Part shown: positions 24,088 through 61,800 of the stretch, in pieces | Layout: each line of letters starts with the position of its first letter | Position numbering within the stretch: the stretch's first letter is position 1 | From: Deuterostichococcus epilithicus | Lineage: Eukaryota > Chlorophyta > Trebouxiophyceae > Prasiolales > Stichococcaceae | Assembly: GCA_033439295.1 (NCBI GenBank) | Contig: JAVTLE010000007.1 | Span: 1,674,001-1,738,000, forward strand | DNA length: 64,000 nucleotides | Direction of reading: 5' to 3' | Program-made: the position numbers and the translations under genes | Notes under the pieces: generated by a model | What the model was told of the DNA's origin: nothing | Databases searched by the model: none | Seen by the model: only the letters and a program-made list of their open reading frames with translations

Positions 24088-36591
<12,504 letters not shown>

Positions 36592-49553: not shown

Positions 49554-52500
49554 TCATCGGCTGCCGTCCCCGGCCAGCAGCGGCGTCTTGGCATTGCCTG
49601 ACGCCACACCCGCATCACCAGGAGCCTCCTTGTGCCGCCGCCGCGACGGTCCAACGATGAGCCACACCACGAAGCCCAGGTACAGCAGTACGCCAGCGAT
49701 CACGCCGGCGATTGCCCAGGGGGTCTCTGTCAGGTTCTGGGCCGCGGCAACGTACACCAGGTACCTGTGGCCAGCCAGCCAACAGCCGCATTGCCACATG
49801 GATGGCTGCTTGTGCGAGGGGTCTGCACATCTAGGGAGTCGGAGCCCATGTGATGCAGCTCCGCTTCAGCGGAGCCCTGGTGCTGGAACGAGGCACGGCA
49901 ACCACATTCTGCTGAGGTTGCCGGGTCTCAGGCTAGAGTGCACTTGGGCGACGCACCCGTTGACGCCGATGATGACGGAGGCGACGACCCAGGCGCCGAC
50001 TCGCGTCGCCAGGGAGTTCACAAAGAAGGGCCCCATGATGCGGCGCGACGATGTGAGCATGATCACCTGCAGCGGCATGGCATGACGCCGCGGTGGATCC
50101 ATCGGAGAGTGGTCAAACAGTTAGCTAATGGCCTCGTCATATCAATACGCCTGCACTGCTGAGTCAAGCAGCCCCCGTGGGCGAGGTCGAGGTGCAGGAT
50201 GGGGGGCGTGTTTCATCCCTCTTCTCCCACAGGACTCATGGAGGGGCCCCACGGCGCCGGAAAGATAGCCAACAGGAGCGGGACGCCACAAAAAAGGTGC
50301 ACCGGGATGACGGCAAAGGGCAGCTGGATGGACTGCAGGATGTTGAGCCACTGATTCAGGACGTCCAGCTTGTTGGGCGAGCGCGCCAGGAGCGCCACCA
50401 GCAGCGTCGGCGCCAGCGCCACAGAGCGCGTCAGCAGGATGCGCTTCCAGGGCGCCACCTGCGTTGCAGCGGCGCCGCGTGCTTTGTGTTTGTGAATCCT
50501 TCAAGGGCCAGCGGTGCTGTGGGGTGCCAAAGCACCAAGCAGGCACGCCAGTCCGACTCTCGTTGGTGTTTCCGCCTGAAGCTGCCCTGCAAGCTCGGAT
50601 AATGCGCCGTTCAGACTCCGACGGCGGCGCCCGAGGAAGCAAGCTCATCTGAAAAGCACCACCAGGAGCGACACACTTGGTGCTGCGAAAGCAGCTCGGG
50701 GCCGCGGAGAAGTGGAGACAGGAGCTGCAGGAGGGACAAGGCACATTGAACCAGGGTAAACAGTGAGATGACAACACCGAGAGAGAACTAGGAGGCACCT
50801 TGAGGTTGAGGTAGCCGCCCATGACGAACTGGCCCGTGTAGGTGCCAGTCATCGTTGATGACTGCCCGGCAGCCAGCAGCCCCAGCGCCCAGATGAAGGC
50901 CTGCACGCCAGGAACGGAGTTGGGCAAGGCTGAGGCACCAGGTGGCACGAAGTCGTGCCCTGAAGGGCGGGTTTCGATGTTGTGCCTGTGCCAACTTGTG
51001 AGATGCCACTGGCAAGAGGCTCTGCCCACGACCAAAAGACTGCGACACAGAAGGCTGGCCCATGCACACTGGCAACTGGAGTGCGAGACTCACCGCAGTG
51101 GTGCCAAAGGTGTTGCCGATGTACTTCCCGGCGTTGGCGAGCCCGATGTCCGAGATGCCCTTGCCGAAAAAGGCCTTGGCGAAGACGGTGACCACGAACA
51201 CGTTGATGAACAGCGACACGAGGAGCGCGAGCGCCGACTCGATGCTGAAGTAGCGCATCGCCTCGCGCTTGCGCGACACGTGCCGCCCCGCAAGGCTCCT
51301 GCATCGCAGCATGACCGCGGGTCCAGCCTGGCAGCAGCAGCCGCGTGGACCGCTGACTCTTCTGGCCTGCTGTCCTTGCTGCTGCAGCAGGTGCATGTGC
51401 GCAGCATGGCAGTCGTAGGACAATTGGGTCCTTTGCAGCTGTCGCTTGCGTTGCTGCCTCCTCTGGCCTGCTCTGTTGCGCCGCTGCAGCAGGTTCGGCA
51501 TGTGTGCGGCCCGGGCTCGGGCTCGCACTAGATGGGGTGCGCCACCCAAGAACTCGGGTCAGGAGGAATGGGTCTCCCTGCGATCGTAGGTGCCATCGTC
51601 ATGCCGCGGGCAGTCGCACCTGCTCTGCACCAGCGCGGAGTGCAGGTACAGGTTGTGGGGCATGATGACAGCGCCAACGATGCCGACCGCCACTGTGACA
51701 TCCGATGCCGGCAGCCGCGGCACCACCAGGCGCCGCAGGATGTGGCTGACCGACGGCGCCGCGTCCCAGAACATGTAGCCGAAGGAGCCGGCCATGACGG
51801 CAATGAGCAGCCCGAAGAAGGCTTCCAGGCGGCGCGCCCCCAGTCGGTCCAGGAACAGGAAGAAGAACGCGTCCACCGCTGTGATCACAACGCCTGCGGA
51901 GCCGGTGGTCCGTCTGCTCAGGCTTGACTGGCGCGCGGCAGGAGGTTGCGTTCAGACGTGATGCCAGACGAAAGGAGTTGCATCTCTCGCTGCGGTGGAC
52001 ACGTGGAACGAATCGCGACACCGTGCGGCTCAGACTGTGCTCGCTGTGCCTGCCGGCGCGGTGCTGGCCTGTTCCTCGCGCCCCTGCATGCGGCTGCTTC
52101 ACTGCTGACAAAGACTGTGCGAAAATGCCAGTGGCCGACAGCAAAGTGCACGCACCTGCCCAGAGCGGGATGTGGCCCAGCGACAGCAGGTTGATGGCAA
52201 TGGCGGAGCCAATGACCTCCTGGATGTCGCTGCCGATGATGGCGATCTCTGCCATGATCCACAGTGCATAACGCGAGAACGCCGGGTATTCTTCCCTGCA
52301 GAAGCAATTACAGTTTGGTTGATGCACGCAAAATCTCGGCAGAAGATGAGCCTTCGCTCGGTCTTGCTAGGGACGCAGCGCCGCTGAAGACCAGCTGCCC
52401 AGGTTGCCGTTGCACAGCCTGCAGCAACTGGCTTAGCATGTGCTGCATGGCCAGTCCCACAGGAAATGCAAGAGAGTTGGAAACATCCAGCCAGCTGCCC

Positions 52501-53128
52501 ACCTGCAGACCTCTGCCAAATGGCGACCGGTAGCCACCCCCAGCTTGGCGGACAGCATCTGCATCGCATACCCCTGCAGCGCCAGCCGTCCGCCGTCAAG
52601 ACAGAGCCTTCCAGGCTCGTCGGTGCATATGCAAGGGGACACAGCAGCGTCCTCTCAGCGCACCGGCGTCGATCGTTCATGCTTGCTGCTTACATCATGG
52701 CGTCAGCTGCGGCGTCCTCACGGCGTGCGCACCATGATGGTGCTCCACAGCAGCACCCACAGGATGGTGTACCCCGTCTGCGCGCCCGCCTGCAGGTCGC
52801 TCTCCAGGTTGCCCGGATCGATGTACGCGATGCTCATGAGGAAGCCAGGGCCGGTGAAGGACCACAGCGCCTTCCAGCTAAACCAGTTTCTAGGCAGCTC
52901 GTCCCCTTGCCAGGCCGGGTCCTCCACGAAGTGTTGCTCCCCATCTGTCGGCGTCCGTCCTGCTTCTCGCAACGTCTCCGGATCCGCGGACACTCCGACA
53001 TCGCTGTTTGTGCCAGGCGCGAGCGGCTCCAGCTCCGAAGAGGGCTCGGCGTCATCGGGGGGCACTTGCAGCACCGAATTTGCTACGAAATCCACCGCTG
53101 ATCTGCCCAACGCAAACAGTCTCGCCAT
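49554..53128 (-). CDS. NRAMP: NRAMP divalent-metal transporter
   Basis: A proton-coupled importer of Fe/Mn and related divalent metals, at plasma membrane or vacuole. ATG 53128 ([14 protein letters not shown]) opens an acidic cytosolic N-terminus, then [20 protein letters not shown] with the metal-binding DPGN of TM1. Canonical GT-AG junctions add [40 protein letters not shown] then [38 protein letters not shown], the second key motif [19 protein letters not shown] (TM6 MPH), [111 protein letters not shown] and a last membrane segment with a short cytosolic tail ending at 49554. All expected segments and both metal-site motifs are present. It faces the metallothionein gene across an 870-base intergenic region. 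Confidence 0.95.
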
Positions 53129-53999
53129 GCGTCCCCAGGCAGGGCACTTTTAGCTCTCTGCAACAGCGTTCATAAACTCAAGTATCGCAAGTATCGCCGC
53201 ATGCCCCTCGAATTTGATGTCTTGGTGAAGTTTATGGTGTAACAAGCTGCTTGCGAACACTTAACAGCTGAACGCCAGGCAGACGAGCGGAGACGAAGCT
53301 GGAGCTGCATGCGACACAAGGCATGCACGTGCGATCTGCAACGGGGGCTGCCATCTCGCCACTTTCTCAGCAACCTTGCCCGGTTACGTGTTCCCAGTGT
53401 GCTCACACGCGAAACCGCACACGCAGCTACCTCTTTGGCGAAGTCCTCGGCTCCTCGCATTTCGGCATTTGCGGTATCGCAGCATTAACTGCGCAACAAA
53501 TCATAACTTTTCAACAGGTGTGTTGCATTTGGCTCTCTTAGCTGCCTGTTGCTGTCGTTCCGCGCGGCTGTTGGGGGTGGTGGGCGATTCAGAAAGTGGG
53601 GGGCGCCCCACTGTCAGCGAGACTGAGCTGTCTGTCTGCTTACAACGTTCCTGGACTGCAACAGCCCGGGGATGTTCCGCAGCAGTGTAGCTGCAGCTTG
53701 CGGTCCCACCAGGCTCACCCGTCTCTGGATGGCCCTAGAATCTGCCTGCCACACCGCCTGTTATAGCCGACTTGGGGCAGTACGCTGGTCACAGGATCTT
53801 GGGTTGCTGCTTGCTGAAGACAGGACCCTTTCAGCAACTCCTGTGCCTTCACGAAGGACTGACAAGCAGGGTCTTAGGGACCACACTGCCCCTTTGACGC
53901 AGTCGTTTGACGCAGTCCTGCGGCGTTAAACAACGGCAAAGCGCCAACCTGATGTTGCGGTGTTGCTGACTGGCTGCGCTTTGTTGCTGTGCAGAGACC
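53129..53999. promoter_or_regulatory. Divergent promoter, NRAMP (-) / metallothionein (+)
   Basis: About 870 bases lie between divergent ATGs. It is lower in GC around 53160-53530 and holds no convincing coding exon. A single GTAC core (the motif bound by algal copper regulator CRR1) occurs near 53779, but one copy is not significant. Shared metal-responsive control is an inference from gene content. Confidence 0.5.
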
Positions 54000-54524
54000 A
54001 TGGGTTGCCCAGCATGCGGCGACGCCTGCCAGTGCCCGGCGGGCGAGTGAGTGGTGTCGACTGACGCTCCCCTGCAGTGCTGAAATATGCCTGAGTGATG
54101 GAGGTCCATGCTTGCCAACATCCGCCTTGATTTCATCCAGAAGACTGAACGGTGTTGCAGGTGCAAGTGCAACCCATCGGAGTGCACCTCAAAGCAGTCC
54201 TGCGGCAAGGCAAACTGCGGGTCAGTCACAAGTCCATATTGCATCATTGTGGATTTTCATGCTATCGCAGCACTGGCATGACGCCTTGCGCTGCTGTCCT
54301 CTGCATGATCATGTACTCACACTATTCATGTGTCTGATGCGCAGCTGCGGGGACAACTGCAATTGCGGTATGTTGCATCTGGCTGCATGTTACTCACTTG
54401 CTTGCATGTGTGCATGTGCATATCATATTATTGGCTGAAGGCGGCGCCCCTCTTTATCCTAGATTTATCCACCTGCTGTGCCGCAGGCGCCAAATGCACG
54501 TGCGGCAAGTGTCCTAGCAACTGA
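54000..54524 (+). CDS. MT: Metallothionein, four mini-exons
   Basis: A small cytosolic Cys-rich protein that chelates Cu/Zn/Cd-type ions. Exons 54000-54046 (MGCPACGDACQCPAG), 54161-54220 (CKCNPSECTSKQSCGKANC), 54345-54367 (CGDNCNC) and 54487-54524 (AKCTCGKCPSN, TGA 54522-54524) join through introns GTGAGT..TTGCAG, GTCAGT..GCGCAG and GTATGT..CCGCAG. Phases 2, 2 and 1 match at every junction. The product has about 55 residues, 15 of them Cys, in C-x-C, C-x2-C and C-x3-C spacings with no aromatic residue, the classic metallothionein composition. Each exon boundary splits a Glu or Gly codon. Exons of 47, 60, 23 and 38 bases are too short for ORF detection. The gene is divergent from NRAMP and convergent with the next gene. 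The Cys pattern is very unlikely by chance; the exact subclass is open. Confidence 0.85.
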
Positions 54525-54834
54525 GCTTGCATCAGAGAGGAAAGTTAGCCGGGTGACAACGCTGAGAATGCGAGAGCAAGCGCAGACATCTCCAAGAAGC
54601 CCGTCCCGTCGCCACGACACATCAGCAGCTTGTTTTGGGACATGAGACTATCAGCTAAATCCTTCAGCCGCCTGAGAATTTGATTCACACTTGGCATCAG
54701 AACGGAGCTTCCAGCCGGTGGTGTTGCAGCTTGTACGTTGACCGTTGACCAAGGTACTACCCTGTGAAACAATGAGTTGTACAAGTACCTGAGATCCACA
54801 ATACCTAGACCACTCCGTTCTACGTATTGGGTAC

Positions 54835-57535
54835 TCAAAGTTCGACGTTTGGTGGCTCGGTTTGTGAAGCCGGCTTCAATTTCGAAGCGGCACTGAACGC
54901 TGCTGATATGCCCTGTTTGGCCTTGCTGAACAGCGGCGCAGCCACAGCAGCTGTCTTCTCCAGCGCGCTCTGCACATCACAACATGGACATTCATCAGGC
55001 CTTTCACTTGTCATCTCATCACCAAGCTGCATCACGAACAACTATGTTTTTTAACTGCTAGAGATCAGCATCCGCTATACACAAACGACAAGGGCTGTGC
55101 ATCATCACACTGATGACCTCTGCTCGCACACTTGCGCACAGCTCCGACACACTCCTGACTCAACAACGCTACCAAGCTAAGGGAATAACAGCAACACACG
55201 CCCTGCTGCAGTTGCACGGGGTGCGGGCTCACCTGAGAGGCGTCCGCCATGCGCTGCTGCACATTTTGCAGCACACTAGCCGCGGTGGGTTTTGACGGCG
55301 GCCCGCTGTCCTCGTCCTCGTCCTCATCTTCATCCTCGTCGCCGCCACCACCGCCGCCGGCCATCGCCATCGCCTCCTCCCTGTTGAATAGCGACCCCTT
55401 CATCCCCGTGCCCTGTGCGCACACAGACGGCGCGTGGAGGTGGGGCTACCTCATGTGTGCCCAGCAGACGAACTGGAACTCGGTAACTCTGCAATGGCAA
55501 CAAGCTGGGAGGCGGCTGCAGACCGCTGCTGGCTGCCGGCTTGTTCCCTTGCCGCTGCCTCTTTGCCAGCATGTCATAGGAGCAGCACGTCATAGGGCAG
55601 CACGTCATAGGAGCGGCACGTCATGATAGCAGCCAAAGACTTGAAGCTTGGCAAGACCCTACTTCCTGGCCGTGCGGCTGCCACTCAAACGCAGTTCCGC
55701 CAACGAAGCGATGACACTGCGGTGCGGAAGATTACGATCGGGGCTCCTTCACGACTGCGGGAAGGGCCGGTGCAATACCTGCATGCTGGCCATCATGCGC
55801 TGCATGTCCAGCTCCTTCTTGTCCACCATCTTGAAGGGCGGCCCCGGCTTGCGCCCCGCCGGCAGCTTTGGCGCCGGCCTGCTGCACGCCGACGTCTCCT
55901 CCCGGCACAGCCACTTGGTGACCGTCTGACGCCCGGCGTCACCCTGCGACATTCAGGTTCGCGCCGTTGGTGTTGACAGCAGACAGGGGCTGGGCTTCCC
56001 GACCCCAGGATCCAGCGGCGGCTGCTCTGCGTCCACCACAGATTCGCAGTGAGCCCTTGGCGCCGGAGCCCAGGCTCGCAGCTGGAGCTCGGCACCTCCA
56101 CCCTCCGCGGCAGCTGCAGCCCACGTTGCAGAGGTGCCGCGAGGCACCTCTGCCGCCGCCGCGGCTTGTCCAGGACAGCAAGCCGGGCGTCTGCACTGTC
56201 GCCTCTTTCGCCGCGCCGCTAGCAGCTGCTCAGGAGTCAAGCGCCTTTCGAAGTAGCTGCCCCAGGTCGAAATGCGCCGACCCCTCCACAGCGACAACTC
56301 CCAAGCTTCGTCCCTACACTCTTTCACTGCAGCAGCACAGGAGTGGCCTGCCTTCCACAGCAGCTCTCCCAGATCGGTGTCTCGGTCGCCCAGCACCTCC
56401 TCCGCCGCCTTCGCAATGGTCTTGCACTCCGACCCGCACACACCCGGCTCCGGCTGCTCCACCAGTTCCAGCCTGCCGCCCTTCTCCACCTGTCATGCCA
56501 TGAGGGGTGTGAGGCTGGTATGGCGTTGACAGGGAAATGTAGGCTAAACTTTTTAGATGCACTCCGACCCGCGCACGCCCGGCTCCGGTTGCTCGACCAG
56601 CTCCAGCCTGCCGCCCTTCTCCACCTGCCGCCCATTGTTGTTTTTCGAAAGGGATCCATAGTTGGTGCTTTTGGCTCAAGGGACAGCGCTGCCGCCAGTA
56701 GGCGTTCAAAACGCGGGCTACAAGTTGCAGTTGGAGAGTCTGCTGGATTTGACAGCCCAACGCCACGGCCAGCGGCTGCTTGTTACCGCGCCGTCCGGTG
56801 CATCACACGCTACCCCTGACAACTGCATTGACCGCAGCACAGGCAGGTGCACATGCTAGGCATCGACAGCATGGTGACCATCCCGGCCGGTCTGATGAGT
56901 AATGGTTGCGCCCAGCATGTGTGTCTGGTGACGCACCAGGTCAATCTTGGTGATCCATTCGCCCTCCGGCGCCACGGGATCGGTGAGCTTCTCGATCGTC
57001 TCCAGGATCGCGATCTCACTCAGCTGCGCGTCGGCCAAGCGCCGAATCACTAGCAAGCCTTTGTACGTGCAGGGCCAGGCAGCGGGCGAGGGTTGACGTC
57101 AGTCACGAAAACTTGAAAATTGGTAATGACCAGCAGCCAACAGCAAGAACAGCGACACACAATGTTGTTGCTTGTGTTGCATAACACAAGCGATGACGAA
57201 CATCATCAAGGCACACGACGAGGGGAATGGGGGTGTGCCCAACTCCAACGCACCTTCTTGCCGGGCCTGACGTCATCCCGCAGCGCCTTGATCTGCCTGT
57301 GCGCATTCTTCGCGAGAGCCTCGCAGACCCCACACCTGTGCATCCGGAATGCGGCATTTCGCAGGCCTGATTGGTTGAAGACTTGAAGTGCGGGTCGCTC
57401 AATCCTGTGCAGCATTGCGCGCCTGATGTATGGGATGTCACTGCGCACAGCTCGCTCATCTGCCCCAGGGAGAGTGTAGCCCGTCGACACGGCGAGGAAG
57501 CCCAGTGCAGCGACTGCGGTTGTAAATGCTCTCAT
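54835..57535 (-). CDS. TLR4-regulator/MIR-interacting MSAP (canopy-like) ER protein
   Basis: A secretory-pathway protein of the saposin-like canopy family, thought to act as an ER folding co-factor. ATG 57535 begins a hydrophobic leader (MRAFTTAVAALGFLAVSTGY), consistent with a signal peptide. Then come CGVCEALAKNAHRQIKALRD, LSEIAILETIEKLTDPVAPE with WITKIDL, VEKGGRLELVEQPEPGVCGS with ECKTIAKAAEEVLGDRDTDL then GELLWK, WLCREETSACSRPAPKLPAG followed by PGPPFKMVDKKELDMQRMMA, an exon GTGMKGSLFNREEAMAMAG with an Asp/Glu run, and a C-terminal exon ending PPNVEL at 54835. Cys pairs and the PGPPF..KKELDMQRMM block fit the plant members. The intron at 56351-55944 reads best as GC-AG. A 48-base copy of an exon start lies at 56577-56624. 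No KDEL-type signal is seen; retention may rely on partners. Confidence 0.83.
55309..55340. repeat. Asp/Glu codon microsatellite
   Basis: Imperfect GTCCTC/ATCCTC units on the plus strand encode an alternating Asp-Glu run in the ER protein. Family members commonly have an acidic stretch here. Confidence 0.8.
55568..55625. repeat. Short repeat containing GCACGTCATAG
   Basis: Three to four imperfect units of GCACGTCATAGGAGC lie in an intron of the ER protein gene. The CACGTCA core resembles bZIP/CRE-type sites, but location inside an intron and tandem origin suggest simple slippage. Confidence 0.7.
56427..56624 (-). repeat. Tandem cassette-exon duplication in ER protein gene
   Basis: The true exon starts at 56489 (VEKGGRLELVEQPEPGVCGS). 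A near-identical copy starts 135 bases upstream in gene sense at 56624. In the copy the GVC codons read GVR and create a donor-like GGC/GTGCGC at 56577, so a 48-base exon (56624-56577) is bounded by an acceptor (GGCGGCAG) and a donor. It is in phase 0 with the true exon and could add 16 residues in frame. Confidence 0.88.
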
Positions 57536-58871: not shown

Positions 58872-61800
58872 TTATTCTGCCGGCTTTGGCTGCGGCGGGG
58901 CGGCGGCGGCGGCCTTCTTGTCGCTCTTAGCCAGCTGGCGGTAGCGCCGCAGGCCGCATGCATTGCACAGCAGCTGCCCGCCGGCGCGCCGCCAGGTGGG
59001 CGTGTCTGTCTCGCCGCACGCAGCGCACACCTGCGGCCAGCAACTGGACCGGGTCGCATGCTGCGCTGCACCATGTTGCTGGGGCAGGCAGCCAGAAGCT
59101 GCCCGTCCCTTTTGCTTACATGACCCCTGGCACAGCAATCTGCACCCTGACTCAGATCGACCATGGACCTGCCCCCAGGGTTTGCCAGCAGAAGGGGCGG
59201 CAGACCGCACTGGAGCGCTGGACGGCAGGCGTCAGGAACCCACTCACCTGGGAGTTTGCATGGGCCACCCTGCAAACAGTGACTGCGACAGTTCTTGCAT
59301 GCTGGTGCGCACCTGGCTCGTGTCGCGGGGGCTGCCGCCCTGACTGGCCGCCTTGCCGCGCTGCTCCAGGTTGGCAGATGCTGCGCGCTTCCTGTTGGCG
59401 GCAGCAATGACGGCTTCCGTGTCTGAGTTCAGGCGGCCGCCGCCCATATCCGGCGCCGAGCGCGACCAGCCCTGTAGGAATACACAGGAGAAGATTTGAA
59501 ACGTGCGCATTGGGCCAGCTGAGCGTCTGGCGCATTGTGCAGAGGCTGTGCACCGGACACTGCCCGAAGCTGCCGAAGCTGCCACGGATACGAACAGCGG
59601 GGAGAATCCTAGCCGACTGTGTACGAGACAGGAAGCGTGATGAGGAGAGCTGCAAGGCTGTTTGAAAAGGCTTCCGCACCAGGGTGGAGGAGGCAAACAT
59701 GGAGGCAGGGCAGGCCGCGTGCTGGGCGAAGGTCGAGGGAGCAGGCTGGCGCTGCAGCCCGCTGCTGCACAGTGATGGGTCTGTAGCGTTCAGTTGGCCG
59801 GCGCCCTGCGAGTTTTAGATGCAAGCTGCGTCAGCAAGGCCGCAATTCACGTGAGACCCATTCGTACACTTGTGGGGACGCCAGAAGCTGCAATGCAGCC
59901 CAACAACGCTGCAGCACTGCTGCTGCGGCGCACGCGCCACGCCGCCAACAGGCATGCAAGCTCGGGTGCCAAAGTGTTAGCACCTCCCACTACAGAGGGA
60001 GTGCTCGCCTGCGAAAGCTGGGGGTTGGCAAGCGGGAAGCCGCTGGCGCCGCGGCCGGGACGCGGCTGCACCGCCTGGAAGCCGCCGCTGCCGGGTTGCG
60101 GCGCGTGCAGCAGCCGTGCCAACTGCTCCTGCTGCAGCCGCCCAGCCTGCAGCCGCTCGGCATGCATCGCCTGCAGCTGCTGCTGCTGCCGTTGCTGCTC
60201 GGTGAGCCACTTCATAGGGCCAACCGGCGGGGCATCGGCGCCGAAGCTGGGCCGCGGGGCAACGGCCTGCGGGGGGTCAAAGCCCCCGGCCAGGAACGGC
60301 TGGGAGGCTCCCGGAGCGCTGGCGGCGGAGAACGCCGCAGCCCAGCCGGCCTGCTGGGTGGCCAAGTACTGCAGGGGGTCCAGCCCCGGCGGCGGCAGCG
60401 ACCGCGGGACGCCGCCGCCGCCACCGCCGGTGCTGCTGCCGCCACCGCCGTCGCCGCCGCCACTGCGCAGCGGCACCGCCTGGGCCTCCTGCCACATCTG
60501 CATAACGGACTGCACGGCGGCGGTGCGGCCCTGCTGCGCCGCGCTCAGGTACGCCATTGCAGCGTTGTGCTGCAGGGTCTCCTGCTGCTCCGCGGCCTGC
60601 TGCAGGGCCTCCTGCGCCGCCGCCTGCTGCATGAGCGCCGCCTGTTGCGCGGCTGCCGCGGCGCGCTGCTGCCACTGCACTGCCTGCTGCGCCGCCGCCT
60701 GCTGCTGGACCGCGTGCAGCGCCCGCCTCTCCGCCGCCTGCTGCGCCTGCTGCTGCTGAGCACGGTCCAGCTGCCACTGCGCCGCGAGCACCTCAAGGCT
60801 GCCAGGCATGCCGCCCAAGTCCAGGCCCACCGCATGTTCCCCGCCGCGTCGCACTGATGCGACTGTCATGGAAGCAGCCAGCGTCGGAGGCGGCAAGGGC
60901 CTGCCCATGAGAGACATACCTTAGTCTCAGCAGAGTCACTAGAAATACATTGCATCTTAGACATAGATTTAAGGGTGTGTGTTCCAGAACCTTGCCACGG
61001 GCAAACCCTGAGCCCGCGTTCAGCCCCTGAGGCCATATAGCTCATCATATCACGATGCATTACACTCGCCATGCTCCAGGAGACTGATACCGCGAGTTGC
61101 GGGACCATGCTGACCGAGCGCTATGTGAGAATGTGCACCAATTCAGACAACGGAGCTTGCGGAGAGGGGGAGGGAGTGCGTCATCACCTGGGAACAGAAG
61201 CAGGCATACGGAGGCATTCCGGCTGCGAGCTCCCGAGCAGGCTGCCCTGCGACGGGCTGCAAGCGCCCGCGCCGCTCATGCTGAGCATCAGGCCGCCGCC
61301 GCCGCCGCCCTGCTGCTGCTGCTGGGCCAGTATGATGCACAGCTCCGCGGAGCTGCTGCTGCTGGAAGGCAAGTTGTCTGCCGCCCCCGACCCCGCGGAT
61401 CCGCCGCTATGCAGGGCGGAGGCTCCGCCGCCCTGCAGCACGCAGCCGACGCTGGCTTCAGGGGAGGCGGTGCGCGGAGAGGCGGCCAGGCTGCCGGGCG
61501 CGCTGCCAAAGGTCCGCAGCCCCGGCGGCACCGCCCCGGAGCCGAGGCGGGACAACGGCGAGGAGGAGGGCTGCCACGCTGGCGGGCTGGAACCTGTGGA
61601 CCGCGCCGGGCGCACAACGCCGGGACGTATGGCCACTGGGCGCAGCACCGGGCTGTCTGTTGCGCCTACGGCGCCATGGGCGACGAAAGGGCGGCCGCCC
61701 TCGGGATTGGGCTGCGCGCCGCCGCCGCTGCCGGTGTCGGAGGATTGGGCGGGTGACGTGCCGGACGGTCGGCTCTCCGGCGGCGTGCGCGAGCGCTGCT

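Follow-up and report, generated by a model that had tools for sequence, protein, structure and literature searches.

A predicted four-exon metallothionein gene head to head with an NRAMP transporter gene in the green alga Deuterostichococcus epilithicus

Structure and composition of the locus

The window analysed here is a stretch of 64,000 nucleotides (C6:1674001-1738000) from a genome of 46.8 Mb in 21 contigs. On its plus strand, four short exons join in frame to encode a small, cysteine-rich protein. Head to head with this gene, on the minus strand, lies a gene for an NRAMP divalent-metal transporter that starts at 53128, leaving 871 bp between the two start codons. In all likelihood the four exons form a genuine nuclear green-algal gene encoding a metallothionein (MT) of 55 residues. 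The features of the locus, in window coordinates, are as follows.

49958..53128, minus strand: gene for an NRAMP divalent-metal transporter, drawn by eye with 8 exons, the last of which has only an approximate end
53129..53999, no strand: 871-bp gap between the divergent NRAMP and MT start codons, a candidate shared promoter region
54000..54046, plus strand: MT exon 1, 15 residues and two bases of codon 16, ATG in ACCATGG
54047..54160, plus strand: MT intron 1, 114 nt, GTGAGT...GCAG
54161..54220, plus strand: MT exon 2, 60 nt
54221..54344, plus strand: MT intron 2, 124 nt, GTCAGT...GCAG
54345..54367, plus strand: MT exon 3, a 23-nt micro-exon
54368..54486, plus strand: MT intron 3, 119 nt, GTATGT...GCAG
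54463..54486, plus strand: 24 nt by which exon 4 could grow in frame, through a CTAG acceptor ending at 54462, judged less likely
54487..54524, plus strand: MT exon 4, ending in the stop codon TGA

The exons, of 47, 60, 23 and 38 nt, total 168 nt, or 55 codons plus the stop, and all three introns are of the GT-AG type. The predicted protein, MGCPACGDACQCPAGECKCNPSECTSKQSCGKANCGCGDNCNCGAKCTCGKCPSN, carries its 15 Cys at residues 3, 6, 10, 12, 17, 19, 24, 30, 35, 37, 41, 43, 47, 49 and 52. An earlier note on this DNA had proposed four mini-exons in phase, giving a protein of about 55 residues that has 15 Cys but lacks aromatics, and the exact join bears this out. None of the 40 non-Cys residues is Leu, Ile, Val, Phe, Trp, Tyr, His or Arg, amino acids that account for 36-39% of background codons. 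Read in the other five frames, the joined exons hold 0, 0, 2, 1 and 9 Cys and 12 to 29 residues of those eight kinds.

Further features of the DNA bear on the gene model from both sides. Exon GC is 0.58-0.74 against 0.48-0.54 for the introns, and GC at third codon positions is 0.80, compared with 0.86 in the NRAMP gene. Acceptors are GCAG in three of three MT introns, as in seven of seven introns of the NRAMP model. Counting against the model, two of the three MT donors, which begin GTG, GTC and GTA, differ from the GTG found in all seven NRAMP introns, and TGTAA, the poly(A) signal of green algae, is absent from 54525-55600, downstream of the gene. The smallest of the eight modelled NRAMP exons measures 71 nt, against 23 nt for MT exon 3. 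A GCAG acceptor-like site lies at 53991-53999 (plus strand), five bases 5' of the MT start codon, and its closeness to the ATG makes an intron in the 5' untranslated region possible.

According to passages of PMC7216689, MTs are proteins of at most 300 residues in which Cys, arranged in motifs like CXC, makes up 15-35% of the sequence and aromatics fewer than 10%. The predicted protein has 55 residues, 27% Cys with five CXC motifs, and no aromatic residue among its 55. Together with the spacing of the C-terminal Cys and the NRAMP neighbour, these properties give good support to the identification as an MT that the earlier note had made, as far as sequence features can indicate.

Searches for relatives returned little. 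Against Pfam, the joined protein drew a single hit, a weak one along its whole length to Metallothio_5 (PF02067), at 9.6 bits and E 1.4, under the cut-off of 25 bits and no sign of kinship; it matched neither the vertebrate (PF00131) nor the plant (PF01439) MT family, and searches of NCBIfam and PDB gave no match. In control runs, human MT scored 81 bits and a true Neurospora MT gave nothing; since Pfam misses a real MT of that kind, its silence on an algal MT is weak evidence. A search of the genome for PF00131, conducted exon by exon, found none, and the controls likewise gave none. PF01439 had three weak matches elsewhere in the genome, all below cut-off, and these places were rejected as MT genes because the chain search described below shows no MT-like chain there. 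Relatives sought by pattern comprised 6 viral and 30 prokaryotic (bacterial or archaeal) matches, none of them confirmed. Searched against the genome, the joined protein matched only its own locus, twice (exons 2 and 1); this search also runs exon by exon and left exons 3 and 4 unreported, so it is insensitive. The gene is likely to be single copy.

The NRAMP neighbour and the wider genome

The NRAMP gene was modelled by eye, with splice sites picked to preserve the transporter frame. Its identity rests on three window ORFs, and the locus in the genome search, scoring over the cut-off for PF01566, and on PDB, where the joined model matches 9f6n best (E 8.5e-139). In the genome search, pieces of NRAMP were found at just two loci, the present one and C18:150270-152871 (11 matches; counts are lower bounds). 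With two such loci among an estimated ten thousand or so genes, adjacency to the MT gene is unlikely to be due to chance, which is suggestive only; if every metal-related gene that would have seemed noteworthy is counted, the probability is perhaps one in a hundred. The 871-bp gap contains one GTAC, one TTCnnGAA and one CACGTG, motifs for which no regulatory role is claimed, and neither TGCRCNC nor a TATA-like or CCAAT element was found in it. The Pfam scan covered 30 of the 109 listed window ORFs, with 3 matching NRAMP, 1 PI3/PI4-kinase and 26 nothing; none of the 10 ORFs scanned on the other side of the MT gene had a match. The kinase match (E 8.9e-15) belongs to an ORF at 25559-26413 on the minus strand.

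Elsewhere in the genome, a phytochelatin synthase locus (PF05023) is marked by four exon-like matches at C5:3833481-3834890. Given this locus and the MT gene, both of the thiol-based systems for dealing with metals appear to be present in the alga. A second MT was sought near the C18 NRAMP (about 18 kb) and near the C5 phytochelatin synthase (about 10 kb) and was rejected in both places, the best chain scoring 5.6, being GC-rich and containing hydrophobic residues. As a separate observation, psaA and psaB lie on a 211-kb plastid contig; psaA is split into two parts with about 1.2 kb between them (C21:139151-142539), which suggests an intron, and the best PDB matches of PsaB, 9kqp and 6igz, are photosystem I chains. 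The top matches come from green algae, 6igz from Bryopsis, in keeping with a photosynthetic host that is very probably a green alga.

Chance and other readings of the locus

Splice-compatible exon chains were scored on MT-like composition, and residues avoided in MTs lowered a chain's score; the scoring was set after the protein had been seen, but from general MT features. Over both strands of the window the MT locus came out on top, at 30.3 with CAG or GCAG acceptors (55 residues) and at 32.9 with any YAG acceptor (63 residues). The runner-up, at 20.7, was a low-complexity intronless reading at 60631-60759, the best minus-strand chain reached 9.0 and the best chain in the reversed window 0.6. 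Thirty loci from elsewhere and here in this genome, overlapping in part, were also scored; two include the MT gene. When Cys alone was counted, the MT locus scored 26.5 (63-residue form) and the best of 40 shuffles 22.1, and a harsher +3/-1 scheme failed to recover it in the window. Binomial estimates, made post hoc and with codons taken as independent, were 7e-9 to 4e-10 for the absence of Leu, Ile, Val, Phe, Trp, Tyr, His and Arg at 40 positions and 7e-8 to 3e-6 for at least 15 Cys in 55.

The 60631-60759 reading (plus strand; 15 Cys in 42 residues) was rejected as a second MT: it is a repetitive run of TGC and GCC and contains Trp, His, Leu and Arg. It also overlaps longer frames on the opposite strand and is a trap for searches by Cys density. 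A large minus-strand chain (73 Cys in 447 residues, 14 introns, hydrophobic-rich) is regarded as an artefact, the search having been permissive.

That the locus is an accident, in which splice-like sites and TGC-rich DNA imitate a Cys-rich protein where no real gene exists, draws some support from its surroundings: TGC is frequent here, as that low-complexity reading illustrates, 20 places in the genome, the MT locus not among them, carry a TGC-spaced pattern, and on Cys density alone two other window chains, at 36.9 and 38.3, outscore the MT locus. We nevertheless regard it as very unlikely, for 1000 shuffled strands scored on composition never exceeded 11.2 (mean 2.5, s.d. 1.7), the 28 same-genome loci without the MT gene scored at most 5.6, and TGC richness leaves unexplained why no position outside the Cys is taken by any of the eight residues that are missing. 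Another kind of Cys-rich peptide, such as a secreted disulfide peptide, would share the high Cys content, as such peptides commonly do, and is extremely improbable as the identity of this product: it lacks a hydrophobic N-terminal signal stretch, its CXC-dominated spacing and want of hydrophobic residues would fit thiolate clusters better than a disulfide fold, and a metal transporter adjoins its gene.

Within the same gene, intron 3 might instead be spliced at the CTAG ending at 54462, adding the eight residues DLSTCCAA and giving, as sole or second form, a protein of 63 residues and 17 Cys that includes a CC pair. This acceptor is in frame and has a pyrimidine-rich tract, and the longer form has the higher of the two chain scores. 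Its use is rather unlikely all the same, given that every modelled NRAMP acceptor and both other MT acceptors are GCAG, that CTAG occurs 124 times on the two strands of the window against 2023 for GCAG, and that the insertion would introduce the only Leu of the protein. As judged from sequence, the acceptor usage of the NRAMP gene argues for the 55-residue form.

Proposed role and comparison with known metallothioneins

After splicing, a small, Cys-rich peptide free of hydrophobic residues would be expected to remain in the cytosol, where its 15 thiolates could wrap soft metal ions (Zn, Cu(I) and Cd). These would most likely form two clusters, with 8 Cys in the N-terminal one (residues 3-30) and 7 in the C-terminal one (residues 35-52), which resembles a beta domain. 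The Cys-to-metal ratios of other MTs would put the capacity at about five divalent ions, or more of Cu(I). We infer the transcription, metal binding and location of the MT, its induction by metal and its co-regulation or co-expression with NRAMP. The head-to-head position suggests joint regulation, by which metal import or vacuolar release through NRAMP may be matched to cytosolic metal buffering by the MT. Tentatively, then, the two genes might be a divergent module for metal homeostasis, with the 871 bp serving as a bidirectional promoter for metal entry or vacuolar release and for the cytosolic buffer, and with the optional acceptor of intron 3 yielding a form of 15 or 17 Cys. Results from Ulva compressa, given in part of PMC13300706, that MT levels are uncorrelated with Cd content would, by analogy, weigh against a simple detoxification role.

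The gene itself is probably real and belongs to a familiar general kind, and its pairing with NRAMP is the most interesting part of the locus. A limited literature search found no report of a compact metal module of this kind in green algae, and the available parts of PMC7826186, on gene neighbourhoods, and PMC12633428, on Auxenochlorella, mention neither MT nor metal gene pairs. New here are the head-to-head MT-NRAMP pair, the GCAG acceptors, the optional 63-residue form and the phytochelatin synthase locus in the same genome. MTs of microalgae are sparsely documented. The presence of phytochelatin synthase and an MT in one genome makes a division of labour between them testable, the divergent NRAMP neighbour offers a direct test of co-regulation and, where homology searches fail, scanning for splice-compatible MT-like chains may uncover further MT genes.

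Among MTs of known structure, the copper MT of Neurospora crassa (1t2y) shares with the algal protein a CNCGxxCxCxxC stretch, identical spacing of the last five Cys and the absence of aromatics. It differs in having 25 residues, 7 Cys and no second domain, and its first two CxC pairs stand 5 residues apart, whereas those of the algal protein stand 3 apart. The beta domain of human MT (2mhu; PF00131) likewise has CXC motifs and the arrangement C-x-C-x3-C-x-C-x2-C seen in the C-terminal half of the algal protein, and vertebrate MT genes, like this one, have short coding exons; the algal protein departs from the vertebrate family in lacking a CC motif, and Pfam does not match it to PF00131.

Pea MT contains CxC-x3-CxC-x3-CxC, as does the algal protein. 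Plant type 1 MTs (PF01439, family 15) are likewise described, in the sources available in part, as having CXC-dominated Cys clusters. In types 1 and 2, as passages of PMC4382971 describe them, a central Cys-free spacer separates two Cys domains, whereas the longest internal Cys-free run of the algal protein is 5 residues and it has no Pfam match to the plant family. Closer in organism are UcMT1-3 of the green alga Ulva compressa, which according to excerpts of PMC6981760 are also CXC-rich, with 24-30% Cys, yet have 81-139 residues and CC motifs, against 55 residues and no CC (in the 55-residue form) here. The Ulva genome paper, in the part available, places UcMT1 copies in the genome and reports UcMT2 and UcMT3 as absent from it. 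Other green algae carry MT annotations too, a likeness at the level of annotation: 6 from Chlorella, 2 from Micractinium and 1 from Ostreococcus among the 153 MT-annotated proteins of microbial eukaryotes in GenBank in November 2019 (PMC7216689, in part), and a Metallothio_2 entry for Chloroidium at E 0.0074 in the section available of PMC5509433.

MT families are regarded as convergent, as PMC7216689 puts it in the passages available, and for this reason we claim no kinship from shared Cys spacing. In gene structure there is precedent: 47 of 53 MT genes of the rice genus have two or three exons, as stated in part of PMC8431808, and split MT genes overlooked by annotation have already been reported, so the mini-exon structure of the algal gene is a known trait of MTs.
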